64,000 bases of DNA. Origin: Lachnospiraceae bacterium oral taxon 500 (GTDB lineage: Bacteria; Bacillota; Clostridia; Lachnospirales; Vallitaleaceae). Positions 33,856 to 56,540 of the stretch are shown here, one piece after another. The stretch spans positions 1,491,001 through 1,555,000 of the forward strand of contig CP027241.1 of assembly GCA_002999035.1 (NCBI GenBank), in the 5' to 3' direction. The position numbers were made by a program, and so were the translations under genes. Below the pieces are notes generated by a model, which ran no database searches, was not told the origin of the DNA, and saw only the letters and a program-made list of their open reading frames with translations. Numbering within the stretch: position 1 is the stretch's first letter; each line of letters starts with the position of its first letter.

Positions 33856-35503
33856 GACCATGAGTCAGAAATGGGGTATACTGGTAGTGCTTATTCAGTT
33901 AAGCGGCTTGCGCAAAGAGATCTTTTAAGTGGGATGACTTTGGCAAGTCCCATGCATCAAGATGTTGACACATCATGATGGCGAAGAGGCGGCAGTACCA
34001 CAATTTAGTAGTGCGGTGTCTGCCGTCTTCTAATTTGTAGTCTATCTTTTCCCTCTTATTACAGCGTTCGGAAGATGTTCTTGCATTGTATTCGGCTTTC
34101 CATTTTTTGCTGCTGCGCGGCGGATCGTTAAAAAGCCTTGGGTTATCTTTCAAAACAAGGTGGACGGTACGGCCATACTTCGCATCCGAGCAAGGATGTT
34201 CACACGTGCAGGCTGGGATTCCACCGACAAAGCTGATTTTGGGGCATTTGAATTTCATACGGCCCTTTGCGTTCTCCGTGCCATCGCGGCGCATACGGAA
34301 ACCTTCTTTGCAAACAGGGACGCCATCAGAATCTATCGTGAAGTCATCTTTGTAAACCGGAGGGTGTCCGCCTTTGCCATTGAGGTCAATGAAAGGTTGG
34401 ATCCCCTGCTCGCGGCAGTACTCGTAGTATGCCATTGCATCATGGGCAGAATCCAGAAGGAGCTTGTTGACGTGGACGTCCGGGAGATACTGTTTCATGG
34501 AAAACCAGTTATACAGGAAGCCATGCGAGTCATGCCGTGAGGCAGGACTCAGGAAAGGGAAAAGGGGGAGATCGTTTTTGGAGTCGGAGGCCGTAAGCAT
34601 GTAAAGGCTATATCCGAAGTAATAGCGATCTCTGTGGGAATCCCATCCGATATTACAATCCGGTTGATGGTAAATGCGGCTGCATGAACAGTCACGGATG
34701 CCTTTTTTCAGGCAGTTGCAGATACGTGTTTTGCGTTCTTTGGCGGCTGTATAAACGGGGGTGCCGTCACCGGAAATGGCGAGATTGTTAAAATCGATTC
34801 GCCCATTTTCGGCGGAGAGATTCAGGAACTGAGATTGGAAGATTTCAAACAGGCGTGCAGCTGGGGCGAAATCCTGCGGAGGCTGAATACCGAACTGTTC
34901 CAGAAGGTCATATACCGTCACTTTTTCTGCCGGTGCCGCTTTCTCCCCCTTCTTCTTTGGCTTTTTCGGCTTTTCCTTTGGTGGGTGGAGAGGGTTGGAA
35001 ATGTTGTTTTTCTCCGACAGCCATAAGTGCTTCATAAAGTCATAAAAGGTACCGGTGCCGGGAGTATCTCCGACAGGAAATCCGGAAAGGATGGCATACA
35101 GGTGGTTTTGCTTCAGGCAGGAAGCCCAGGAAGTCAGGGAAGGGACCTTAAACTTCATGGAAAGCAGGTAAGAACGCAGCATATCAGAAGGAAGCCGTGG
35201 CTTAGGACCAAAGACAGAGTAACGATCCAGCATGATTTGATCTACCGAGGAGAGATCCAACCCCCAGAACTGTTCGAGCACGTCCCAGGTAGAGGAGTCA
35301 AAAGCAACATCGGCATCAGGATAATATTTACGAAGTTGAATCAGAACGCGATTCTGATAGGTGGCATGGCCGCCAGTGTTAATTGGTTTCAAAATGTGCA
35401 CCTCCAATCAAGAGTGAATTTGCTTTTTAATTGAAGGGCGCGCCTCGCTTCCTCTGCGAGGCGATATCAGCAAGGCGCGCCGCACATTTTTGGCCTCGTG
35501 TCA
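33856..35503 (-). mobile_element. insertion sequence, IS4 superfamily (boundaries approximate)
   Basis: The transposase gene is flanked by a candidate pair of imperfect terminal inverted repeats: GACCATGAGTCAGAAATGG at 33856-33874 and, on the opposite strand, GACACGAGGCCAAAAATGTG near 35484-35503. About two thirds of positions agree when one gap is allowed. The implied size (about 1.65 kb) suits the group. No obvious target duplication was found, so the ends remain uncertain. The right end contains a strong CGCCTCGC/GCGAGGCG hairpin. Confidence 0.5.
33899..35407 (-). CDS. transposase, IS4-superfamily DDE type
   Basis: A 502-residue transposase. The DDE residues are placeable: first D in ISGDGTPVY, second in LLLDSAHD, and the E within an exact Y-(2)-R-(3)-E-(6)-K signature, YNARTSSERCNKREK, near residue 450, which defines the IS4-like fold. 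A cysteine-rich insertion (CNCLKKGIRDCSCSRIYHQPDC and CTCEHPC) may bind zinc. A proline/lysine-rich linker lies near 145-160. The reading frame is intact, so the element may still be active. Confidence 0.85.
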   Translation of the reverse strand: MEVHILKPINTGGHATYQNRVLIQLRKYYPDADVAFDSSTWDVLEQFWGLDLSSVDQIMLDRYSVFGPKPRLPSDMLRSYLLSMKFKVPSLTSWASCLKQNHLYAILSGFPVGDTPGTGTFYDFMKHLWLSEKNNISNPLHPPKEKPKKPKKKGEKAAPAEKVTVYDLLEQFGIQPPQDFAPAARLFEIFQSQFLNLSAENGRIDFNNLAISGDGTPVYTAAKERKTRICNCLKKGIRDCSCSRIYHQPDCNIGWDSHRDRYYFGYSLYMLTASDSKNDLPLFPFLSPASRHDSHGFLYNWFSMKQYLPDVHVNKLLLDSAHDAMAYYEYCREQGIQPFIDLNGKGGHPPVYKDDFTIDSDGVPVCKEGFRMRRDGTENAKGRMKFKCPKISFVGGIPACTCEHPCSDAKYGRTVHLVLKDNPRLFNDPPRSSKKWKAEYNARTSSERCNKREKIDYKLEDGRHRTTKLWYCRLFAIMMCQHLDAWDLPKSSHLKDLFAQAA

Positions 35504-44275: not shown

Positions 44276-45211
44276 TTATTTTACAATCTTTGTTCCGGTC
44301 AGGCCCTTGATGGCTTCATCGGCCTTTTCCAGTGAAGTAATGATTGCTTCACGGTTTTCACCGGCCATTACAAAGTCAAGGCAGGCTTCCACTTTCGGCA
44401 GCATGCTGCCCTTAGCGAAATGGCCTTCTTGGATGTACTGATTGGCTTCGGCTGAAGTCATTACATCCAGCGCCTTTTGTTCCGGCTTGCCAAAGTGAAT
44501 GCAGGCCTTTTCTACTGCCGTCAGAATCAAAAGCACATCTGCTTCGATATCATTGGCTAATTTGGCGCAGGATTTATCCTTATCGATAACCGCATCAACC
44601 CCGACTAATTTTCCGTCTTTGCGGACAACCGGAATTCCGCCGCCGCCGACCGTAATCGGAATCATATCCTGAGCAATAATCTTGTTAATTGCGTTTAACT
44701 CAACAATCGCCGTCGGTGCAGGTGAGGGCACAACCCGGCGGTAGCCCCGGCCGGAATCCTCAATGAAAGTAAAGCCTTTTTGCGCCGCCAGCTCGTCAGC
44801 CTTTTCCTTGGCATAGAACATACCAACCGGCTTGGTCGGATGTGCGAAAGCACTGTCCTTTGCATCCACTTCAACCTGAGTGACAACACAGATTACATCC
44901 TTATCGATGCCTTCCTGGCGGAACTTTTCTTCAATCGCCTGCTGCAAATGGTAACCGATATAGCCCTGCGACATAGCGCCGCATTCAACTAAAGGCATCG
45001 CCGGCATCTTGACTTCGCCTTCTGCCGCATAATCCATCGCCAGATTGATGATACCGACTTGCGGGCCGTTGCCGTGACCGATAATGATCTGATTACCGGA
45101 ACGTACCAGTTTGGCAATGGTTTCGGCTACGAAATCAACGGCATCCCGCTGTTCCTTTGGTGTAAAGCCTAAAGCGTTACCGCCCAGAGCAATGACAACT
45201 CGTTTTCCCAT
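44276..45211 (-). CDS. arcC: carbamate kinase
   Basis: A 311-residue enzyme that makes ATP from carbamoyl phosphate and ADP. The N-terminal VVIALGGNAL, the HGNGPQVG segment (about residues 46-53), the EDSGRGYRRVVPSP stretch and the VGGGGIPV loop match the family. It follows ornithine carbamoyltransferase by 21 bases, so the pair performs the energy-yielding end of arginine/citrulline catabolism. No arginine deiminase gene is in the window. Confidence 0.95.
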   Translation of the reverse strand: MGKRVVIALGGNALGFTPKEQRDAVDFVAETIAKLVRSGNQIIIGHGNGPQVGIINLAMDYAAEGEVKMPAMPLVECGAMSQGYIGYHLQQAIEEKFRQEGIDKDVICVVTQVEVDAKDSAFAHPTKPVGMFYAKEKADELAAQKGFTFIEDSGRGYRRVVPSPAPTAIVELNAINKIIAQDMIPITVGGGGIPVVRKDGKLVGVDAVIDKDKSCAKLANDIEADVLLILTAVEKACIHFGKPEQKALDVMTSAEANQYIQEGHFAKGSMLPKVEACLDFVMAGENREAIITSLEKADEAIKGLTGTKIVK

Positions 45212-45232
45212 AAAAAACCTCCGTGACTGCTC

Positions 45233-46225
45233 TTAGCATAAAGTAGCGTAAATAACCGCTTTGATCGTGTGCATTCTGTTTTCGGCTTCGTCAAAGACTA
45301 CGGATTGCGGGCCTTCAAAGACTTCGTCGGAAACTTCCATTTCCGGCAGGCCGAACTTTTCGTGAATTTCCTTACCGATGGTGGTCTTTAAGTCATGGAA
45401 GGACGGTAAGCAGTGCATGAAGATTGCTTCCGGATTAGCGTTCGCCATAGCTGCCTTATTGATTTGATAGGGCTTTAAGAGGCGAATTCTTTCTTCCCAA
45501 ACACTGTCCGGCTCGCCCATTGATACCCAAATATCGGTATAAAGCACATCGGCGCCGGTGGTGCCTTCTTTCACGTCCTCGGTGAAGCGGACGGTGCAGT
45601 GGCTCTGTTTAGCAATTTCCTGAGCCTTGGCCTGCAGTTCTTCATCCGGCCACAAAGCCTTCGGTGCGCAGCCGGTGAAATCAAGACCCATCTTAGCGCA
45701 GGCAATCATCAAAGAGTTGCCCATGTTGTTTCTGGCATCGCCCATATAGGTGAAGTTTAAGCCCTTTAAGCGGCCGAACTTTTCTTCGATCGTAAGCAGG
45801 TCAGCCAGCATTTGGGTCGGGTGGAAACGGTCGGTCAGGCCGTTCCAAACCGGTACGCCTGAATATTTGGCTAAGGTTTCAACCAAAGATTGATCGAAGC
45901 CGCGGTATTCAATACCGTCATACATCCGGCCCAGTACCCGGGCGGTATCTTCGATACTTTCCTTTTTGCCCATCTGCGAGCTGCCCGGATCAAGGTAGGT
46001 CACGCCCATACCCAGATCCATACCGGCCACTTCAAAAGAGCAGCGGGTGCGGGTTGAGGTCTTTTCAAATAACAGAACAATGTTCTTTCCTTCTAAATAG
46101 CGATGAACGGTACCCGTTCTTTTTAATTCCTTAAAGTTTCTTGATAAATCAAGCAGATAGCGAATCTCGTCGCTGGTGAAGTCCAATAAAGTTAAAAAAC
46201 TCTTACCACGTAAATTTTTAGCCAT
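45233..46225 (-). CDS. arcB: ornithine carbamoyltransferase
   Basis: A 330-residue enzyme. The carbamoyl-phosphate motif STRTR lies at about residues 55-59 and the ornithine-binding HCLPSFHD near 270. Linkage to carbamate kinase favours the catabolic direction (citrulline plus phosphate to ornithine plus carbamoyl phosphate). Start is the ATG eight bases after AAAGGAG; the open frame extends further upstream without signal. Confidence 0.93.
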
Positions 46226-46341
46226 GTTAGCTCCTTTCTTGATGAGTTGCTCCGCTTTTAAATAGAAGAAAGAGGAGCGGGCAGTCATATAACTGCCGAG
46301 GTTAAATAATTATAACTGCAATATTGATTATCGTGCCTTTT

Positions 46342-46347
46342 ATTATA
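46342..46347 (-). promoter_or_regulatory. -10 element of the arcB-arcC operon
   Basis: Minus-strand TATAAT about 115 bases before the start codon, preceded by GG as in some extended -10 sites. No good -35 at the usual distance, so an activator is plausible; the divergently placed AraC-type gene is a candidate. Confidence 0.45.
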
Positions 46348-46636
46348 CCTTATTTTCAATAAAAGGTGTAGCAAATCTGGGCGAAATCATTGTACAATTT
46401 TGCTTTTCTTTTGACCGGATTTTGCCTCAAACCGACGTCAAAATTTAAGAATAGAAATGAAAAAAAGGAATTAGAGCCGAGTTGTCGAATAATTAAAAAA
46501 GGATATAAATCGAGAAAAGAAAACGTAAAAACAGCATAAATAAAGGAAAAAACGGAGAAGGAGGGAAGCTAAAAACAGAAAGTCAAAAAAATATCAGACA
46601 TAGTAAAACCATACAAAAAATTTAGAATTGAATGTC

Positions 46637-46665
46637 TTGATTCGGATTATATTACCATTTATAAT
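46637..46665 (+). promoter_or_regulatory. promoter of the double-AraC regulator gene
   Basis: TTGATT (46637-46642) and perfect TATAAT (46660-46665) with a 17-base spacer. The 499-base divergent gap 46226-46724 is otherwise AT-rich and geneless. Confidence 0.75.
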
Positions 46666-46724
46666 AAGGGTAGGTTCGTCAAAACCCTTAAAACAGAAGT
46701 TTTATAGAAATGGGTTGGTGAAAG

Positions 46725-48005
46725 ATGACGAAATACAAAAGAGCTGATATACAGCCAATTGATTATTCCAGCATGAAGCTGGAGGGACTGTTTAGTTTTG
46801 ATCGTGAAGTGATTGAAGCACCGACACTGCCGTTGCTGCATCAGGCGGCTCGCTTTCTTTTGATTTTAGAAGGCGAAGGAGTGATCAATATCAACGGCCG
46901 GGACTGCCCGCTGACGAAGGGCACTTTGCTGGCCATGATGCCTTGGCATTTTTCTGAGGTGACCAAAGTCGAAAAACCGCTGCAATACTACATTTTAAAG
47001 TATAATGTCGATATTGTGAACCGGTTTGTCAAGACGTTGCATGATTTGGATGATAACAGCAATTTTTTGGATCTGCTTTATTCCAAGCATACCATTTCCT
47101 GTGATAAATCAGAATTGGAAATATTGAAAAATATTTTTACTTCGATTAAAGAGGAATTAGGTGAGGAATCCGTTTTCACCGAAGGGAAAAAGCGGCCGCT
47201 GACAGAAGTTTTTGTCATTTGTAAGATTATTGAGATTATTACTTTGTTTATCCGTAAGTCGGAACAGGATGAAGCGCTCCCGCCCGAGGAAGCTGCCGCC
47301 GAGGCGGAAGAAGCGGCCGGTGACGATAAGGCGCTGGTTAATGTCTTTAAATATATTTATTCCCATTTGGGCAGGGGATTAAGCGCTGAAAATGTGGCCA
47401 ATGTCTTTTTTACCAGCAAATCAACGCTGACCAAATACATTAAAAAGACCACCGGCTTATCCTATGAAAATCTGGTCAATGAGATGAAGATTGGCAAGAT
47501 TATGGAAATGCTGCTTTATACGGAACTGAGTATTAACGAGATTGCCTTTATTTTGGGCTTTGTCGATCAAGCGCATTTGACCAAGGTATTCAGCCGCCGG
47601 ATAGGCAAATCGCCCAATAAATACCGGCAGATTTTTGGCAGCAAACTGCTTTTATATAATGAAAATGATATCCGGCTGTTTTATAAGATTTTGGATTATG
47701 TCTGTAAAGGGTACAGCGGAGATCTTTCGATTGAGGTAGTCAGCAGCGAGTTTGGTCTGACCAATGCCCAATTAAATGAGATGTTTATTTACCATGTGGA
47801 AAAGAGTTTTGCTGATTTTGTCAATTTTATCCGAATCGGCAATGCCTGCAAAATGCTTTTGAATTCGAATAAAAATATTACCAGCATTGCTTTTGAGGTT
47901 GGTTACAACAATTCCAAGACCTTTTTGCGCAACTTTAATAAGCTGCGGGGCATGGCTCCGTCCGAGTTCCGGTTAAGCGGAAACTTACAGGAGTTTGATT
48001 TATAA
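46725..48005 (+). CDS. AraC-family regulator with two HTH domains
   Basis: A 426-residue protein. Residues about 20-100 form a cupin-like ligand-binding domain (LLILEGEGVININGRDCPLTKG). An acidic alanine/glutamate linker lies near 187-202. Two separate AraC-type HTH regions follow: about 206-305 (VANVFFTSKSTLTKYIKK then INEIAFILGFVDQAHLTKVFSRRIGKSPNKYR), and about 318-422 (ITSIAFEVGYNNSKTFLRNFNKLRGMAPSEFR). Two complete AraC domains in one chain are unusual. It is encoded between arcBC and the transport genes and probably regulates one or both. Confidence 0.85.
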   Translation: MTKYKRADIQPIDYSSMKLEGLFSFDREVIEAPTLPLLHQAARFLLILEGEGVININGRDCPLTKGTLLAMMPWHFSEVTKVEKPLQYYILKYNVDIVNRFVKTLHDLDDNSNFLDLLYSKHTISCDKSELEILKNIFTSIKEELGEESVFTEGKKRPLTEVFVICKIIEIITLFIRKSEQDEALPPEEAAAEAEEAAGDDKALVNVFKYIYSHLGRGLSAENVANVFFTSKSTLTKYIKKTTGLSYENLVNEMKIGKIMEMLLYTELSINEIAFILGFVDQAHLTKVFSRRIGKSPNKYRQIFGSKLLLYNENDIRLFYKILDYVCKGYSGDLSIEVVSSEFGLTNAQLNEMFIYHVEKSFADFVNFIRIGNACKMLLNSNKNITSIAFEVGYNNSKTFLRNFNKLRGMAPSEFRLSGNLQEFDL

Positions 48006-48160
48006 AAGTTTGTTTTTGAGTATTAAAAGATTTAAAATTCTTTTGCAATTAATCATGCATCGGTTTTTGAAGTTTTTGATACTTTTTATACAATATTGAT
48101 TTATCGTAGGAGCAACTGTTAACCAAGACGACAATATTATTTTTATTAGGAGGAAATAAT

Positions 48161-49561
48161 ATGAATCAAGTGGTAGATTTGATCACAACCTTTACAAACT
48201 GGCTGTGGGGACCGCCTTTACTGATTTTGGTAGTTGGCGGCGGTATTTTACTGACGGTCCGGTTGGGATTTTTTCAGATCAGGTATTTTCCTTACATTAT
48301 GAAACAGACCTTCGGTAAGATTTTTTCCAAGGCCGAGGGAGAAGGCACACTGACACCATTCCAGGCGGCAACAGCGGCGCTGGCTTCGTCGATTGGTGCG
48401 GCCAATATCGTAGTAGTTCCGTCCATTATTTTCGTAGCGGGGCCAGGAGCGGTTTTCTGGATGTGGGTTACAGCGGTGCTGGGTCAGGCTACTAAGTTTT
48501 CGGAAATTGTACTGGGCTTAAAATACCGCGAGAAAAATGCGGAAGGCGAATATGTCGGCGGCCCGGCGTACTATATGAAAAAGGGCATCAAGGGTACAAT
48601 CGGTAAGATTTTAGGCTTTTGTGTTTCTTTCTTCTTTATGATTGAAATATTGCCGTCGATTACCTTGCAGACACTTTCAGCCGCTTCGCCGCTGGAAACT
48701 TTGGGCGTCGATAAAAAGATTGCGGTTGGTTTGATTTTGGCTTTGGTGCTGCTGGTTGTTTACGGCGGTATCAGCCGGATCGGTAAGGTTACGGAAAAAT
48801 TAGTGCCGTTTATGGCTTTGGCTTACTTTGTAGTAGCGCTGATTGTCATTTTGATTAATATCGGCCAGATTCCGAATGTGCTGTATATGATTTTTGCCGG
48901 TGCTTTTAACCCGCAGGCAGTGGCTACCGGTATCGTTGGTGCAACGGTTGCCAAAGCCATTCAAAACGGTGTGGCCCGCGGCGTATACTCCAATGAAGCC
49001 GGCATGGGTTCGGCTCCGTATGCTCACTCGACAGCGGTAACCGATCATCCTTGCCGCCAGGGGATGTGGGGTATTTTTGAAGTATTTGTTGATACAATTG
49101 TAGTTTGTTCTATATCGGCGCTGGTTGTTTTATCCACTGGTGTCTGGACACCGCAGACGACACCGGATTCCGAATTTAAGGCAGTGGCTGTTACCAAGGC
49201 AGTCAGCAGTATTTTCGGCAATGTCGGTTCGGTGATTGTATCGATTTGTTTATTCCTGTTTGTTCTTTCCACCATTATCGTCATTGTTTTTTACTGCGAA
49301 AAACAAGCGGAATACCTGTTTGGCAGCTTCCTCGGCAAGATCATGCGTTTTGCCGCTACGGCCATGGTAGCAGTGGCTCTGTTTATCAGCTTTGATAATG
49401 CCGGCGTATTCTTAGACTTTACTTTGGGTCTGGTGGTTGTGCCGAATATGATCGCTTTGATCTTATTGAGCGGTGAAGTGGTCAAACTGAAAGAGGAATT
49501 CTTTAACACCCCCGGTAAATATTATCTGAAAGATATTGATAAGAACGCCGGTAAAAAATAA
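48161..49561 (+). CDS. AGCS-family sodium:amino-acid symporter
   Basis: A 466-residue transporter of the alanine/glycine:cation symporter family. Landmarks include the N-terminal WGPPLLILVVGGGILLTVRL, the ALASSIGAANIVVVPSII segment (a variant of the usual IGTGNI), and RGVYSNEAGMGSAPYAHS in the middle. About ten membrane helices are visible. Start ATG follows AGGAGG. Substrate in this setting might be a small neutral amino acid or an ornithine-pathway product. Confidence 0.88.
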   Translation: MNQVVDLITTFTNWLWGPPLLILVVGGGILLTVRLGFFQIRYFPYIMKQTFGKIFSKAEGEGTLTPFQAATAALASSIGAANIVVVPSIIFVAGPGAVFWMWVTAVLGQATKFSEIVLGLKYREKNAEGEYVGGPAYYMKKGIKGTIGKILGFCVSFFFMIEILPSITLQTLSAASPLETLGVDKKIAVGLILALVLLVVYGGISRIGKVTEKLVPFMALAYFVVALIVILINIGQIPNVLYMIFAGAFNPQAVATGIVGATVAKAIQNGVARGVYSNEAGMGSAPYAHSTAVTDHPCRQGMWGIFEVFVDTIVVCSISALVVLSTGVWTPQTTPDSEFKAVAVTKAVSSIFGNVGSVIVSICLFLFVLSTIIVIVFYCEKQAEYLFGSFLGKIMRFAATAMVAVALFISFDNAGVFLDFTLGLVVVPNMIALILLSGEVVKLKEEFFNTPGKYYLKDIDKNAGKK

Positions 49562-49641
49562 TGAGGCAAGAGGTTTTTTGGCAGACAAAAGCAAGGCTTG
49601 CTTAAAAACGCTAAAAAATCAGGATTAACGATGCCAACCAA

Positions 49642-49693
49642 AAATACCTTCTTAGCGGGCTAAAAGCAGTTGTCTGTTCGGAAGGTATTTTTT
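49642..49693 (+). terminator. terminator after the AGCS symporter
   Basis: AAATACCTTC pairs with GAAGGTATTT around a 29-base loop and continues into TTTTG. Some transcripts may read through into the next gene. Confidence 0.7.
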
Positions 49694-49730
49694 GAACAGC
49701 GGCATTTGAGGAAAGGATTTAAAAACAGGA

Positions 49731-50888
49731 ATGGATAAGAATGACAATAAGGTAAGAACCAAAAAAGAAATCAGTCTCGAAGCAGTTGTCTTTTTAGTCG
49801 GATTTTTGGCCTTTTTTATTGCGGTCGGCCGCATTATGGGCGGAACCAATATGCTGAAAACGATGATGGCTACTTCCTATGACCTGCTGATGAACGTGTG
49901 CTTTTATTTAATGGGCGTAGCGGTTCTGGCCGGCGGGATTTCCGGCGTGTTTTCCGAATTTGGTGTCATTGCCTTAATCAATAAAGGATTATCGGTTGTA
50001 ATGAAACCGATCTATGATCTGCCCGGTGCCAGTTCACTGGGAATGCTGAATTGCTTTATGTCGGATAACCCCGCGATTTTAACGCTGGCGCATGACGACA
50101 ACTTTCGTCAGTATTTCAAAAAATATCAGCTGCCGGCGCTGACCAACTTAGGTACGGCCTTCGGCATGGGACTGATTATTACCACTACGATGATGGGCTT
50201 TCCAGTCGAGGGCGCGATTAAAGCGTCACTGATCGGTGTTTTAGGTGCGGTTGTAGGCAGTGTTATTTCGGTTCGGCTGATGATCTTAAAAACCAGAAAA
50301 TATTATGGTACAACGGAACGGGTAGAGGCCAAAAGTATTACTACGATTCCGGCCGGACAGCGGAAAATCCGGGACGGATCCGTTGGCTCCCGCTTTATTC
50401 AGTCCTTGCTGGAAGGTGCCAAGATCGGCGTGGATATGGGATTATCCATTATTCCCGGTGTGCTGCTGATTTGTACGGTTGTGATCATGCTGACTAACGG
50501 TGTCGGCGATGCCGGTGTTTATAACGGTTCTGCTCGTCAGGGCATAGAGATTCTGCCCAAGATTGGATCGTATCTCAGCTTTGTTGTAAAACCGCTGTTC
50601 GGTTTTAGTACGCCGGAAGCGATTGCCGTACCGATTACGGCGCTGGGTAGTGCCGGAGCGGCAATTGGGATTGTCAATGAGATGGCAATCAGCGGTAAAG
50701 TGACGGCTAATGATATTGCTGTCTTTACTTCGATTTGTATGTGCTGGAGCGGCTATTTGTCAACGCATATTGCCATGATGGACGCGCTTGATACTAAGGA
50801 AATGACCGGCAACGCCATTTTGTCCCATACCATTGGCGGCCTGGGAGCCGGTGTAGCGGCTCATCTGCTGTGGATGCTGCTGGGTTAA
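49731..50888 (+). CDS. CD0519/CD1768-type membrane protein (nucleoside-recognition/GATE-like)
   Basis: A 385-residue membrane protein. It starts with a charged N-terminus and has eight or more hydrophobic segments. The LLMNVCFYLMGVAVLAGG and MLNCFMSDNPAILTLAHDD stretches match proteins known from Clostridioides difficile as the CD0519/CD1768 family, related to Gate-domain transporters. Function is not established, but its relatives occur with amino-acid metabolism genes. It lies between the AGCS symporter and the ClpB-like gene. Confidence 0.75.
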   Translation: MDKNDNKVRTKKEISLEAVVFLVGFLAFFIAVGRIMGGTNMLKTMMATSYDLLMNVCFYLMGVAVLAGGISGVFSEFGVIALINKGLSVVMKPIYDLPGASSLGMLNCFMSDNPAILTLAHDDNFRQYFKKYQLPALTNLGTAFGMGLIITTTMMGFPVEGAIKASLIGVLGAVVGSVISVRLMILKTRKYYGTTERVEAKSITTIPAGQRKIRDGSVGSRFIQSLLEGAKIGVDMGLSIIPGVLLICTVVIMLTNGVGDAGVYNGSARQGIEILPKIGSYLSFVVKPLFGFSTPEAIAVPITALGSAGAAIGIVNEMAISGKVTANDIAVFTSICMCWSGYLSTHIAMMDALDTKEMTGNAILSHTIGGLGAGVAAHLLWMLLG

Positions 50889-50896
50889 AGAAGATT

Positions 50897-50929
50897 ATTC
50901 AGGCAGGCAGAAAGCCTGCTTGCCTGAAT
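50897..50929 (+). other. intercistronic hairpin
   Basis: Perfect nine-base arms ATTCAGGCA/TGCCTGAAT plus GGC/GCC inside, without a T run. It may stabilise or process the transcript between the transporter and ClpB-like genes. Confidence 0.5.
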
Positions 50930-50952
50930 AGTAACATATAAAGAGGAAATAC

Positions 50953-53463
50953 ATGGATAAGTCAAAATATTCACAGGCGGCGCTTGATGTGATTAAGGAA
51001 GCGCATCAGTCGGCGATCAAAAATCAAAATGCGGAAGTGACGGACCTCCATTTGATGCAGGCGATTTTGCGTCAGCCCGATACCGAGATTGTTCGGGTGC
51101 TGACGGAAATGGGTGTGATCACCAAGGCGCTTTCGCTGGATTTAGAAGAAGCGATCGGCCGAATCCGGTCGGCTAAGGGGATTACCAGTCTTTATGTCAG
51201 CCGCTCATACCAAAGAGCGCTGCTGATTGCCGAAGAGATTTGCCGTAACTTGTACGAGTCTTTGGTAACGGTGACTCATCTTTTTTTGGCTCTGCTGCGG
51301 GAAGAGGATATGGCGGCGGCAAAGCTGGCCGGAGTTCACGGCTTAAGCTATGATGCTTTGCGCAAAGAATTAGTTCGCCGCTGGAGCAGCGCGTTTGCCA
51401 ATGGGATTTCCGAGGAATCTCTGAAGACTTTGGCTAAGTACGGACGCAACTTAAATCAGGAAGCGCAGGCCGGTAAGCTGGATGAAGTGGTCGGCCGGGA
51501 GGAGGAAACCACTTCGGCGATTCGGGTTTTGTCGCGCCGGATTAAAAACAATCCGGTACTGATCGGTGAACCGGGGGTAGGCAAAACGGCGATTGTCGAG
51601 GGGATTGTCCAGCGGATTGTGAAGGGTGATGTCCCCGATCCGCTGAAAGATAAGCTGGTCTTTGCGCTCGACATGACGGCGGTGATTGCCGGCGCTAAGT
51701 TCCGCGGCGATTTTGAGGAAAGACTGAAGCAGATTTTAGAAACAATTAAGAACTCTAACGGCCGGATTATTTTGTTTATTGACGAACTGCATAATATTAT
51801 CGGTTCGGGCAATACCTCCGGTACGATGGATACTTCCAATATTTTAAAGCCGATGTTAGCCCGGGGGGAACTCCTTCTGATCGGAGCAACCACCATTGAG
51901 GAATACCGGCTGCATATTGAAAAAGACGGAGCGCTTGACCGGCGCTTTCAAAAAATACTGGTTGAGGAGCCGTCGGAGGAAGCGGCGATTTCGATTTTGC
52001 GGGCTTTGAAAACCCGGTATGAGCATCATCATACCGTCCGGATCAGTGACCCGGCGATTATTGAAGCGGTGCGGTTAGCTAAGCGCTATCTGACCGAACG
52101 GCGGCTTCCCGATACGGCGATTGATGTGATTGACGAAGCCTCGGCGCTGGTGCGGATGTACCGCGATGAAAGGCCGGCGGCGCTGGAAGAAACGCATCGC
52201 AGCCTAGTGCAGCTGGAAACAGAGCGGATTTTACTGGCTAAGGAACAGGACAAGGTTTCAAAGTATCGTCTGGCTGAGCTGGAAGAAAAGATTGTCGCTT
52301 TGACAGCCGAGTTTAACCGGATGGAAAAGGCCTATCAGGCCGAAAAAAGCCGGCAGACGGAAATGGCTCGGTGCCGGCGCGATCAGGAGCTTTTGCAGCT
52401 GCAAATGGAAGAGGCCAAAGCCGAGCATCGCTTTGCTGATTTGGCGGAGCTTTTGCCGGTACTGGAGAAAACACAGGCTGCTTTGACGCGGCTGGAGGAA
52501 GCGGGCGAGGCTTTTCCGCTGCCGTCCGAGGTGGGCGTTGAAGAGGTCAGGGAAATTGTATCCAAGTTATCCGGCAGCCCGAAACAGCGGCTGGAAAGCG
52601 ATCAGCTGGCACATATCGCTGAAATTCGGGAAAGTATGCGCCGGAAGATGATAGGCGGCGACGAAGCGATAGAAGGGATTATCAATGCCTATATCCGGGC
52701 GCAGTCCGGTCTTCTGCCGCGACAAAAGCCAATGGGCAGCTTTATTTTGTGCGGGCCGTCCGGCACCGGCAAATCCTATCTGACCAAATTGACGGCAGAT
52801 TACTTATTTGACGGGGAAAGAAGCCTGATTACCCTGGATATGAGTGAATATACCGATAAATCCTCAGTCACCAAGCTGATTGGTGCACCGCCCGGCTATG
52901 TTGGCCATGAGCAGGGCGGAAATCTGACCGAAGCGGTTCGAACCAAGCCCTACAGCGTGATTGTCTTTGACCATGCCGAACGGGCGCAGCGGGAAGTGCA
53001 GGGTATTATCCGCCAGATTATGGCGGCCGGCGTGTTGAACGATAACCGGGGCCGGCGGATTGATTTTAAAAATACCATGATTTTTTTAACGACAGAGCCA
53101 TCTGCCGAAAGCGACGGCGGCCGGATATCGCTGCCGAATGACCTGGTGCAGGCCGCAGACAGCGAGTATACACTGAACGCTTTTGACCTGCCCAAGCTGA
53201 AAGAGCTGGCTGAACTCCGGCTTCGGCAGTTGGCGGAGGGGCTGGCGGCCGGGCATATCCGGCTGGAATGGGAGGAAACATTACCCGGCTTTTTAGCGGA
53301 ACGGGTCTATGCGCAGGGCATGGGTGCGGGACTGCTGAACAGGATGATAGAAAAGGAAATTATTACACTTCTTTCCATGAAGAGTTTTGCCGGCGGGCTG
53401 ACCGCTTTTGCAACGGTGCGGCTGGCGAAGGACGAGCAGGGCAATATTACAGTGGAAAGTTGA
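50953..53463 (+). CDS. ClpB-like AAA+ protein with degenerate second ATPase domain
   Basis: An 836-residue protein with the ClpB plan: N domain (1-150), D1, a coiled-coil middle domain (about 395-530) and D2. D1 looks active: Walker A GEPGVGKT at 205-212, Walker B IDE at 276-278, and the arginine-finger region ALDRRF. In D2 the Walker A GPSGTGKS (601-608) and pore loop GYVGHEQGG remain, but the Walker B glutamate is histidine (D673-H674), the sensor-1 asparagine is glutamate (E715), the sensor-2 GAR is GAG (G793), and the RIDEVVVF arginine-finger segment is unrecognisable. There is no ClpP-binding loop. It probably unfolds or remodels a dedicated client. Confidence 0.85.
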   Translation: MDKSKYSQAALDVIKEAHQSAIKNQNAEVTDLHLMQAILRQPDTEIVRVLTEMGVITKALSLDLEEAIGRIRSAKGITSLYVSRSYQRALLIAEEICRNLYESLVTVTHLFLALLREEDMAAAKLAGVHGLSYDALRKELVRRWSSAFANGISEESLKTLAKYGRNLNQEAQAGKLDEVVGREEETTSAIRVLSRRIKNNPVLIGEPGVGKTAIVEGIVQRIVKGDVPDPLKDKLVFALDMTAVIAGAKFRGDFEERLKQILETIKNSNGRIILFIDELHNIIGSGNTSGTMDTSNILKPMLARGELLLIGATTIEEYRLHIEKDGALDRRFQKILVEEPSEEAAISILRALKTRYEHHHTVRISDPAIIEAVRLAKRYLTERRLPDTAIDVIDEASALVRMYRDERPAALEETHRSLVQLETERILLAKEQDKVSKYRLAELEEKIVALTAEFNRMEKAYQAEKSRQTEMARCRRDQELLQLQMEEAKAEHRFADLAELLPVLEKTQAALTRLEEAGEAFPLPSEVGVEEVREIVSKLSGSPKQRLESDQLAHIAEIRESMRRKMIGGDEAIEGIINAYIRAQSGLLPRQKPMGSFILCGPSGTGKSYLTKLTADYLFDGERSLITLDMSEYTDKSSVTKLIGAPPGYVGHEQGGNLTEAVRTKPYSVIVFDHAERAQREVQGIIRQIMAAGVLNDNRGRRIDFKNTMIFLTTEPSAESDGGRISLPNDLVQAADSEYTLNAFDLPKLKELAELRLRQLAEGLAAGHIRLEWEETLPGFLAERVYAQGMGAGLLNRMIEKEIITLLSMKSFAGGLTAFATVRLAKDEQGNITVES

Positions 53464-53509
53464 GTTGATAATGAAAAGTAAACCCAAAATGACGAAAGGG
53501 AGGTTGAAT

Positions 53510-54685
53510 ATGGGATTTCAGTTACCAGAGTTTGAATACCCGGATTTTTCCGAGAAAAGGTATGCTGACGCGGCGGAGGTTCGCGTAGCGACAGTGGAGA
53601 TGGATGGCGTGGCGCCGGAGGATTTTTATCTGACCTCGCATATGCCGACTTTTTACAAGTTAAACGGTAAATGGTTTTTGCCGAAGCACAATTCGCTGAA
53701 CTGCGTGGCGATCAAATCCGGTGAGGAGATTGAGGTTGTTGAACTTCGTGATTTGAAAAAAGGGCAGGAGGTAGTGCTGGGTCAGAAAACGGACGGCAGC
53801 GAAGGAATTTTAGTTTACCGCGAGGGTTTTCCGGCTTGGGTATACTCGGAATCAGGTAAGGCAGTAGAAACCTCTTTTTCTGAGGATTATGATTTCCTGT
53901 TCCAGCTGATGGAATATGAAAAAGAGCATAACGGTAAAATCGTCTGGGTATTGGGACCGTCGGTGGTGTTTGACTACGATACCCGGGTGGCGCTGAATCG
54001 TCTTGCGGAAAACGGTTATATCAACTGTTTGCTGGCCGGCAATGCAATGTGTACGCATGACCTAGAGGGCGGTTTTTTGCGGACGGCTTTGGGGCAAAAT
54101 ATTTATACTCAGGAAAATGTGCCGATGGGCCATTACAACCATTTGGATCTGTTAAATGAAGTGCGGACAATCGGTTCGATTAAGGACTTTATTGCTTCGG
54201 GTAATGTCAAGGACGGCATCATTAAAACTTTGTCGGATATGGATATCCCCTTTGTGCTGTCCGGCTCGATCCGTGATGACGGACCGCTGCCTGAGGTTTA
54301 TAAAGAAGTTACAGCAGCATTGACTGCTACTAAGGAGAAGCTGAATGAAGCCACCTTGATTATCGGACTGGCTACCATGCTGCACAATCTGTCGGCAGCG
54401 AATATGGCATCCGGTTACCGGGTACGCGAGGACGGACGGGTAACGCCGGTTTACATGTATGTAATTGACGTAACGGAAAACGTAGCCAATAAAGTTGGCG
54501 CTGCCAGAGAAAATATGGCTTTCGTCCCGATGATTACCAATGTTCAGGATTTTGTGGTCAACTGCGAAAAAGCTTTGGTTAAACCGGCCGATAAGAATCT
54601 GACGGCGGCCATGGAACTGCCGGAAATGGAATATGCCGGTTTGGATAAAAAAGAAGAAGCAAGGAAAGGAGAGATGGGACGATGA
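53510..54685 (+). CDS. LOR/SDH-domain protein, archaeal-type ornithine cyclodeaminase-like (paralog 1)
   Basis: A 391-residue protein of the TIGR00300-like LOR/SDH group, whose archaeal members convert ornithine to proline and ammonia with NAD. Residues about 1-130 are the N-terminal domain and about 145-370 the nucleotide-binding part. Conserved segments kept here are VLGPSVVFDYDT, LLAGNAMCTHDLE, SGSIRDDGPLPE and LATMLHNLSAANM. Start at 53510 follows GAAAGGGAGG. Its stop overlaps the start of the second paralog. Enzyme identity is inferred from family and the nearby ornithine genes. Confidence 0.75.
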   Translation: MGFQLPEFEYPDFSEKRYADAAEVRVATVEMDGVAPEDFYLTSHMPTFYKLNGKWFLPKHNSLNCVAIKSGEEIEVVELRDLKKGQEVVLGQKTDGSEGILVYREGFPAWVYSESGKAVETSFSEDYDFLFQLMEYEKEHNGKIVWVLGPSVVFDYDTRVALNRLAENGYINCLLAGNAMCTHDLEGGFLRTALGQNIYTQENVPMGHYNHLDLLNEVRTIGSIKDFIASGNVKDGIIKTLSDMDIPFVLSGSIRDDGPLPEVYKEVTAALTATKEKLNEATLIIGLATMLHNLSAANMASGYRVREDGRVTPVYMYVIDVTENVANKVGAARENMAFVPMITNVQDFVVNCEKALVKPADKNLTAAMELPEMEYAGLDKKEEARKGEMGR

Positions 54686-55776
54686 ACTTTGAAATGCCGA
54701 AATATCATCATCCTGATTTTACGCAGGAGTTTTTGCAAAAGGCGCCGAATGTCACCTTGGAAGCGGTGGAAAGAGACGGGATCAGTCCCCGAAACTATCA
54801 CGCCCTGTCGGTTTTCCCGGAATATTTTAAAATTAACGGTAAATGGGTTTTGGCGGAGCAGTCGCGGATGGATACGGTCTGCGTGGCGGTTGACACCCCC
54901 GGGCGGGAAAGAGTCGATATTGTTGAGTTCCGGAATTTGAAGAAGGGCGATAAGGTCGTTATCGGCCGGACTGAGGATGCCTCGGAAGGAATTTATGTCT
55001 GGACGCAGGGCTTTTTGGCGGCGGATGCCGAAGCCGATACCTTTGCTTTCCGCTCCGGCCGGTCGCGGGAAACTGCTTTTTCAGTCGATTATGATACGCT
55101 TTATGATGTGCTCCGCTACGAAAAGGCGCATAACGGTTATGTTACTCTGATTGTCGGTTCGGCGCTGGCGCTCGATCGGGATTCTCGGGCGGCGTTGGAG
55201 CGGCTGATTCGTGAGGGCTATGTCCAGGCGATTTTCTGTGGTACGGAAACAGCTGCCTTTGATCTGGAGCGCGGTATCTTTGGTACGACCTGGGGACAGA
55301 GAAACTTTACCAAAGAGCAAAACACGACCAGAAATATGTATGCCGCCATTAATTTGGCCAGAAAATACGGCTCAACCAAAGCGTTGGTCGAGTCGGGACA
55401 GGTGAAGGACGGCTTTATCAAGGCCTGTGTCGAAAAGAACGTTCCCTTTGTTCTGTCCGGTACGATTCGCGACCGTTTTGGCTTGCCGGAAACGATTGAT
55501 AATGTGTATGAGGCGCAAAATATCATGCGCAGTCATGCCCGCAAGACTTCAACCATCATTATGATGGGCGCAATCCTGTTTACGATTGCCACCGGCAACA
55601 TGACCCCGTCTTATAATGTGTTTGATGGCGTAGTCCGGCCGGTATATATGTACACGATTGATATTCAGGAGTTTGCCGTCAATAAGCTGTCCGACCGCGG
55701 TACCTTGACCGCCGTGTCGATGGTCACTAACGCCCAGGACTTCATCCGCAATGTTGACCGGGCGCTGAACGGGTAA
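54682..55776 (+). CDS. LOR/SDH-domain protein, second paralog with altered motifs
   Basis: A 364-residue protein clearly homologous along its whole length to the preceding gene product, for instance in the N-terminal E-R-DGISPRNYHALS and in ESGQVKDGFIKACVEKNVPFVLSG. Several conserved stretches are changed: LLAGNAMCTHDLE becomes IFCGTETAAFDLE, SIRDDGPLPE becomes TIRDRFGLPE, and ATMLHNLSAANM becomes GAILFTIATGNM. It may be a catalytically different or inactive partner subunit. Translationally coupled (ATGA) to paralog 1; a terminator follows. Confidence 0.7.
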   Translation: MNFEMPKYHHPDFTQEFLQKAPNVTLEAVERDGISPRNYHALSVFPEYFKINGKWVLAEQSRMDTVCVAVDTPGRERVDIVEFRNLKKGDKVVIGRTEDASEGIYVWTQGFLAADAEADTFAFRSGRSRETAFSVDYDTLYDVLRYEKAHNGYVTLIVGSALALDRDSRAALERLIREGYVQAIFCGTETAAFDLERGIFGTTWGQRNFTKEQNTTRNMYAAINLARKYGSTKALVESGQVKDGFIKACVEKNVPFVLSGTIRDRFGLPETIDNVYEAQNIMRSHARKTSTIIMMGAILFTIATGNMTPSYNVFDGVVRPVYMYTIDIQEFAVNKLSDRGTLTAVSMVTNAQDFIRNVDRALNG

Positions 55777-55869: not shown

Positions 55870-56004
55870 TTACAATACCTCGTGTGAAATGCCATATCTT
55901 TCTATCGCAATGGCACGTGCCTCAGATAGTGTTCTTGCTTCAATGTGTACAATTGTTTTTTTGCCGGTTTGTCTATCTTTAAGCGTAAAAGTAAATTTAG
56001 TCAT
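55870..56004 (-). CDS. 44-residue microprotein with strong ribosome-binding site
   Basis: A 44-codon frame too short for usual gene calling. It starts MTKFTFTLKDRQTGKK and ends GISHEVL, with an amphipathic helix-like stretch (EARTLSEARAIAIERYG) in the second half; a beta-hairpin plus helix fold is plausible. AAAGGAGGTGGG lies just before the ATG, and a TTGACA/TATAAT promoter lies upstream on the same strand. No family is recognised. The consensus signals make it a convincing gene despite its size. Confidence 0.7.
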   Translation of the reverse strand: MTKFTFTLKDRQTGKKTIVHIEARTLSEARAIAIERYGISHEVL

Positions 56005-56045
56005 TATCCCACCTCCTTTCATAATTTATTTTTATTGACAATACC

Positions 56046-56074
56046 ATTATATATATATATATATATAATGTCAA
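56046..56074 (-). promoter_or_regulatory. promoter with TA-dinucleotide repeat spacer
   Basis: Minus-strand TTGACA (56069-56074) and TATAAT (56046-56051) are separated by a 17-base spacer made almost wholly of TA repeats. The repeat tract covers about 56048-56067 (ten TA units, running into the -10). Gain or loss of one unit would change the spacer to 19 or 15 bases. Confidence 0.8.
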
Positions 56075-56280: not shown

Positions 56281-56540
56281 TCGATTTATGATATCATAAA
56301 CATACTGGCAAAAATGCGGCAATAATATCTTATACTAACACGAACAGGAACGTACCGCGACTTGTTTTAGAAAATTTTTCTGTTTTATTTTATAAATGTA
56401 TGATATAATCATTAATATGGCAAGTTCGCCGGAGAAAAAAGGTGAGATATCTTGCTCGGGCTGCCGGTTTAGGAGCAAAGGCAAGGTTTTTATTATGGCG
56501 GCGTTTCTGTGCCGGGAAAATTGCAAAACAGGAGAAGAAA

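Follow-up and report, generated by a model that had tools for sequence, protein, structure and literature searches.

The division of work between the rings of two-ring Hsp100 proteins is commonly tested via engineered Walker mutants. NSF and Sec18 belong to a different AAA+ subfamily and are without an M domain. In NSF, D1 hydrolyses ATP and does the work, and D2 is mainly structural, holding the hexamer (excerpt of PMC4428496). Pex1/Pex6 also keeps a catalytically dead ring, one of two stacked rings; the dead ring there is D1, with D2 active, and the complex is a heterohexamer (excerpt of PMC10518020). Among Hsp100 proteins, ClpA is driven principally by D2 (excerpt of PMC9663308), high ATPase activity of ClpG requires both rings, and a block of one ring of ClpB raises the ATPase of the other (both from an excerpt of PMC8024975). 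The plant SMXL/D53 proteins are described as atypical Clp ATPases that resemble ClpB; they regulate signalling, carry an EAR motif that lies between two subdomains of D2, and have an elongated M domain (excerpt of PMC9133912). A literature search for naturally occurring Hsp100 proteins whose D2 has degenerated found no report on such a bacterial ClpB, as judged by titles and the opening of abstracts.

The gene described here would be a natural experiment on which Hsp100 ring works, since evolution appears to have shut down D2 but spared the pore loop of that ring. Its product shares with bacterial ClpB (TIGR03346; M. tuberculosis 6dju and E. coli 4d2q) the domain order, a full-length M domain, the D1 motifs and the D2 pore loop, but it is without the D2 catalytic and signalling residues and the Tyr503 position. 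The likeness to NSF and Sec18 is an analogy, as the sequence belongs with the Hsp100 proteins, and in contrast to those proteins it has lost the D2 finger and sensors. Pex1/Pex6 shows the mirror image, and the plant proteins differ in role and architecture as described above. ClpG and ClpK are also Hsp100 disaggregases related to ClpB, but the protein scores 500.0 and 493.3 bits on their models (NF033607 and NF033606), against cut-offs of 1900, and its one apparently intact ring sets it apart from ClpG, which needs two working rings to reach high ATPase.

The gene is an open frame at 50953-53463 on the plus strand of the window (the whole stretch of DNA analysed, 64,000 nucleotides), with an ATG start, 836 encoded amino acids and no internal stop. 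The ClpB plan that the first-pass annotation had proposed, including the middle coiled coil, was borne out: Pfam places Clp_N, AAA, AAA_lid_9, AAA_2 and ClpB_D2-small on the protein, giving two AAA modules, an AAA lid and the small D2 domain, with an M domain of about 120 residues. We compared the protein with 24 canonical ClpBs, comprising one from the source genome, 22 from the genomes of searched relatives and one named Lachnospiraceae record; the set contains near copies, a split frame (L030) was excluded, and alignment A1 holds 22 of the 24 (without L016 and L021). Positions with the same residue in at least 23 of the 24 were taken as invariant. The features of the gene, all on the plus strand, are as follows.

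50953..53463, plus strand: ClpB-like gene, with Clp_N, D1, M and D2 in that order (open frame; Pfam; NCBIfam ClpB TIGR03346)
50953..51402, plus strand: N domain, residues 1-150, with 7/16 canonical-invariant positions kept (alignment)
51421..52152, plus strand: D1, residues 157-400, with Walker A 205-212, Walker B D277 E278 and Arg fingers R330 R331 intact
52153..52512, plus strand: M coiled coil, residues 401-520 (alignment)
52753..52776, plus strand: D2 Walker A GPSGTGKS, residues 601-608, P-loop consensus kept
52873..52941, plus strand: D2 pore segment with GYVG, residues 641-663, 17/19 invariant positions kept
52969..52974, plus strand: end of D2 Walker B, with D673 kept and His674 at the catalytic Glu (alignment)
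53023..53028, plus strand: D2 signalling Asp pair, here Ala691 Ala692 (alignment; offset from the Walker B Glu)
53095..53097, plus strand: D2 sensor-1 Asn, here Glu715 (alignment)
53179..53181, plus strand: D2 Arg-finger position, here Ala743 (alignment-dependent)
53329..53331, plus strand: D2 sensor-2 Arg, here Gly793 (alignment)

The top NCBIfam family was ClpB (TIGR03346), with 786.4 bits, far below the cut-off of 1232.1, and the score for TssH/ClpV (TIGR03345) was 633.8 bits against a cut-off of 884.95. The nearest solved structure by sequence was M. tuberculosis ClpB (6dju). With the order of N domain, D1, M and D2 and competent D1 motifs present, and with the ClpB cut-off missed and competent D2 motifs lacking (E674H, D691A, N715E, R743A and R793G), we call the protein ClpB-like and not a ClpB, a name given on sequence grounds. 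The source genome, a single contig of 3.2 Mb, also encodes a canonical ClpB (869-aa open frame at C1:2635716) and two more Clp ATPases, whose open frames span 809 and 776 aa, and the ClpB-like protein is thus an extra protein.

The D1 ring appears competent. All catalytic positions checked against the 24 ClpBs were kept (G205/G210/K211/T212, D277/E278, sensor-1 T313 and R330/R331), and the pore residue is aromatic (F250; Tyr in 21/24 canonical ClpBs and Phe in 3/24). The large D1 subdomain was the best-kept part of the protein, with an identity of 0.67 to the canonical ClpB of the same genome.

Five functional elements of D2 are altered. Three substitutions named by the first-pass annotation were correct: the Walker-B Glu is His674 (DE to DH at 673-674), the sensor-1 Asn is Glu715, and the sensor-2 Arg is Gly793 (GAR to GAG), each at a position where all 24 canonical ClpBs carry the expected residue. 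The Arg finger, Arg in 24/24, is Ala743 in a remnant LNAFD that lies opposite LNRID, a placement that depends on the alignment. This remnant is flanked by deletions of 11 and 9 residues, so the annotated loss of the whole RIDEVVVF finger segment was right as to the missing arginine and much of the surrounding sequence, but part of the segment stays. Beyond what had been noted earlier, the intersubunit-signalling Asp pair, both Asp in 24/24, reads AA at 691-692 (D691A), and four residues are deleted from the M domain. The role of the signalling Asp was taken from an excerpt of PMC4428496, and we located it 17 residues from the Walker-B Glu by the numbering there. D2 keeps the P-loop Lys607, in a Walker A stretch that fits the consensus as annotated, together with the Walker-B Asp673 and the GYVG of 648-651. 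Loss of D2 hydrolysis with retention of the P-loop, the central claim of the annotation, is well supported by these sequence comparisons. The D2 is a well-supported sequence oddity of a single genome.

A frameshift or sequencing error in D2 was considered and set aside. By eye, the other five frames of 53050-53480 contain no RPEFLNRIDE-type segment, which makes a compensated frameshift unlikely.

The losses in D2 exceed what paralogy of such depth brings. The protein keeps 90/112 canonical-invariant positions in large D1 versus 59/101 in large D2 (Fisher p 0.0006), and 8/25 in the end of D2, after residue 720. Six ClpC/ClpA proteins from other subfamilies, two of them from the source genome, served as controls. 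These are as distant as the ClpB-like protein in D1 (85-95/112 kept), and they keep D2, with 80-89/101 positions in large D2 and 15-19/25 in the D2 end. The D2 catalytic positions were complete (7/7) in five controls and 6/7 in the sixth (L004), where Glu replaces the signalling Asp. Within large D2 of the ClpB-like protein, the pore segment keeps 17/19 positions versus 37/74 elsewhere outside Walker A (p 0.0017, a guide only, as the segment borders were chosen after seeing the alignment); the controls keep 14-16/19 there. The Walker A stretch (600-608) keeps 5/8 invariant positions with its consensus intact.

A deletion in the M domain suggests that canonical Hsp70 tuning has been lost. Four residues matching E. 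coli QYGK are deleted between residues 499 and 500, and the deleted stretch covers E. coli Tyr503, counted along the E. coli chain. In E. coli ClpB, Y503D is hyperactive without Hsp70 and E432A is repressed (excerpt of PMC4023160). The deletion may mean that Hsp70 does not regulate this protein as it does a canonical ClpB. The Glu432 position (E. coli numbering) is kept, the canonical M-domain Trp is Tyr461, and the M-D2 linker Trp, found in 24/24 canonical ClpBs, is Leu539.

AlphaFold2, run on a 23-row alignment, gave a model with a mean pLDDT of 76.5 and a pTM of 0.44. Values of pLDDT below 50 fell at 145-150, 281-291 (D1), 647-653 (the D2 pore tip) and 717-743 (surrounding the lost finger segment), and apart from the last two regions D2 is folded in the model. 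Among the best 50 matches listed, a structure search returned ClpC, Hsp104 and ClpB chains at query TM of 0.31-0.57 over the whole chain, values to be expected when a chain has several domains whose placement is uncertain; this search adds little.

On balance, the sequence probably encodes a ClpB-type Hsp100 remodeller that is driven by D1, with a D2 that grips without hydrolysing and a division of labour like that of NSF. D1 would be the only ATP-hydrolysing ring and would do the pulling. In all likelihood D2 remains folded, and it may bind nucleotide; it would not hydrolyse ATP or signal nucleotide state between neighbours, and would act as a passive lower ring that helps to hold a presumed hexamer and grips the chain through its retained pore tyrosine. 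A machine driven by D1 alone is plausible given the raised ATPase of ClpB when one ring is blocked. It is also surprising, the main motor of ClpA being D2, and since ClpG reaches high ATPase only with both rings, such a machine may be a weak one. The D2 ring could itself be weakened by the missing Arg finger and signalling Asp.

The alternative that fares best, which we regard as unlikely, is decay of a spare ClpB: the gene would be a paralogue heading for loss, with a D2 eroded by chance as selection relaxed. Relaxed selection alone might account for the changes in D2 and the M domain, and the state of D2 is known from one sequence, whose eroded C-terminal part (8/25) also fits slow decay. 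Against decay, the frame is open throughout, the D1 catalytic residues are kept and the D2 pore segment is spared. When neutral drift of D2 to the observed 34.5% identity was simulated, with the canonical clpB D2 of the same genome as ancestor and indels ignored, a mean of 9 stops arose and 1/500 runs had none. On inspection, a plausible ribosome-binding site is also seen, and the next gene starts a short distance away. Its GC content (0.53) is slightly higher than that of other genes measured nearby (0.41-0.52); GC3 (0.60) is inside the range of the neighbours (0.50-0.64), and the canonical clpB is similar, with GC 0.50 and GC3 0.59.

Decay would also fit the lack of an orthologue in the genomes searched. 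A search with D2 in 391 genomes of the class gave 17 matches at E 1e-40, the protein itself and 16 at 38-43% identity; Walker B read DE in 15/16 and sensor 1 TSN in 14/16 of these, the rest being unread by crude patterns and not contrary. At the level of the order (392 genomes, E 1e-43) the only match was the source genome itself, and, the source genome apart, no match in 22 genomes of the family exceeded that of a canonical ClpB. When the whole protein was searched in 59 relatives and 20 genomes with neighbour families, matches listed besides itself (8 in the second of these sets) had at most 55% identity, and among the 59 relatives the three top-scoring non-self matches were the ClpBs of its own genome and two congeners. 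A genome-contig scan, which requires that at least one of six eight-residue stretches match exactly, found nine sequences related to the C-terminal D2 (26-51% identity), all nine with DE and TSN by eye. The class, order, family, 59-relative and 20-genome sets overlap, and the first four of them include the source genome. Orthologues may exist elsewhere, as the genome sets cover about half of GTDB species and three of the searches sampled groups, or their D2 neighbours, without exhausting them.

Origins on mobile elements were also considered and rejected. A viral contig scan gave 10 relatives with 31-33% identity to D2, and all 2060 plasmid records matched at less than 60% identity (best among the matches listed, 40.9%).

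The branch of the ClpB-like protein is very long (1.67 changes per column in the D1 tree and 3.94 in the tree of D1, M and large D2), as a decaying spare might show. Trees were built from 48 rows, with L005, L006, L007, L030, L037 and the short L043 excluded. With D1 alone, a ClpB clade without the protein was not rejected (p-AU 0.48). With D1, M and large D2, such a clade was rejected (p-AU 0.02), which would place the protein inside ClpB, subject to the long branch and to row L046, which was counted as ClpB, groups with ClpC/ClpA rows in this tree and clouds the test. Recent duplication within the genus, tested as one clade with the ClpBs of its own genus, was neither supported nor rejected (p-AU 0.20 for D1 and 0.11 for D1, M and large D2).

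The gene lies in a metabolic cluster, with an AraC-type regulator, an AGCS symporter and a CD0519-family protein upstream and two cyclodeaminase homologues downstream. The neighbours are as follows.

44276..46288, minus strand: carbamate kinase and ornithine carbamoyltransferase, a divergent pair (NCBIfam)
46725..48005, plus strand: AraC-type regulator (Pfam)
48161..49561, plus strand: AGCS sodium:alanine-type symporter (Pfam and NCBIfam)
49731..50888, plus strand: CD0519/CD1768-family membrane protein, transporter-like (NCBIfam, 579 bits against a cut-off of 300)
53510..54685, plus strand, start 53471 or 53510: first putative nickel-pincer-nucleotide ornithine cyclodeaminase homologue (NF052526, 428.8 bits, just below the cut-off of 440)
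54682..55776, plus strand: second putative nickel-pincer-nucleotide ornithine cyclodeaminase (NF052526, 465.5 bits, above the cut-off of 440)

Between the ClpB-like gene and the first cyclodeaminase homologue the gap is 7 or 46 bases, depending on the start of the latter. The two tandem cyclodeaminase genes overlap by four bases and their proteins are 40% identical; a LarC1 homologue (cofactor synthesis) is present in the source genome. In the mechanism favoured above, the client would be a product of this cluster, and a dedicated client, which the first-pass annotation had also proposed, is a guess based on gene order in one genome. If the link to the cluster is true, the protein would be a private unfoldase for a metabolic pathway. 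A fuller version, with D2 switched off, D1 alone threading, a ratchet-like grip by D2, the Hsp70 switch removed and the whole acting as a dedicated remodeller, or as an activase, for the membrane protein encoded alongside or for the cyclodeaminase pair, we consider quite unlikely to hold in all its parts.

We sought the neighbour families in 398 genomes of the phylum each, the source genome included. NF052526 matched in 39 genomes at E 1e-50, with 7 above the cut-off, and NF049989 in 12, all above the cut-off. No gene like the ClpB-like gene was found at E 1e-8 in 21 regions around these families, which extend roughly 10 kb to each side or to the contig end, some ending early for the latter reason. 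The regions come from 20 other genomes: every other one with NF049989 (11), every other one with NF052526 above the cut-off (6), and 3 of the 32 others with NF052526 below it (29 were left out).

The protein could instead be a regulatory subunit that forms mixed hexamers with the canonical ClpB of the genome and alters its activity. Such a partner is present, and the large D1 subdomain is indeed the part closest to it, but an intact D1 active site with its fingers is needless for a purely regulatory role, D2 is eroded, and the gene sits in a metabolic cluster 1.09 Mb away from canonical clpB. We find this reading doubtful and give it a low probability. A D2 that still hydrolyses ATP by way of His674, Glu715 and a displaced finger is very improbable, since, for all that Walker A Lys607 and Asp673 remain, five elements are altered together and the alignment offers no visible substitute for the Arg finger or the sensor-2 Arg.

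Part of the arginine/ornithine cassette (44276-55776) appears to differ between close relatives. In two congeners, one with a genome that is 89% complete, the second cyclodeaminase had no match at E 0.001 and the AGCS symporter none at E 1e-30, so these genes were apparently either acquired in the source genome or lost from the congeners. Both congeners are collinear with the window from about position 56409 rightwards, with 58-84% protein identity for the main frames, and to the left of the collinear block both carry a different gene, cardiolipin-synthase-like by eye.

Several further elements were seen in the region. A transposase-like frame, named by eye from its translation, lies about 9 kb left of the cassette (33899-35407, minus strand). 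Just upstream of the ClpB-like gene, in the gap that follows the membrane-protein gene, 50894-50932 can form a strong hairpin of 17 pairs with a loop of 5 (-27.4 kcal/mol, z -6.7); by eye it has no T run, and its first 22 bases are unique in the window at up to 3 mismatches. On the minus strand at 55870-56074, a full-consensus promoter-like site (TTGACA-17-TATAAT, 12/12) precedes a 44-codon minus-strand frame with a good ribosome-binding site by eye.
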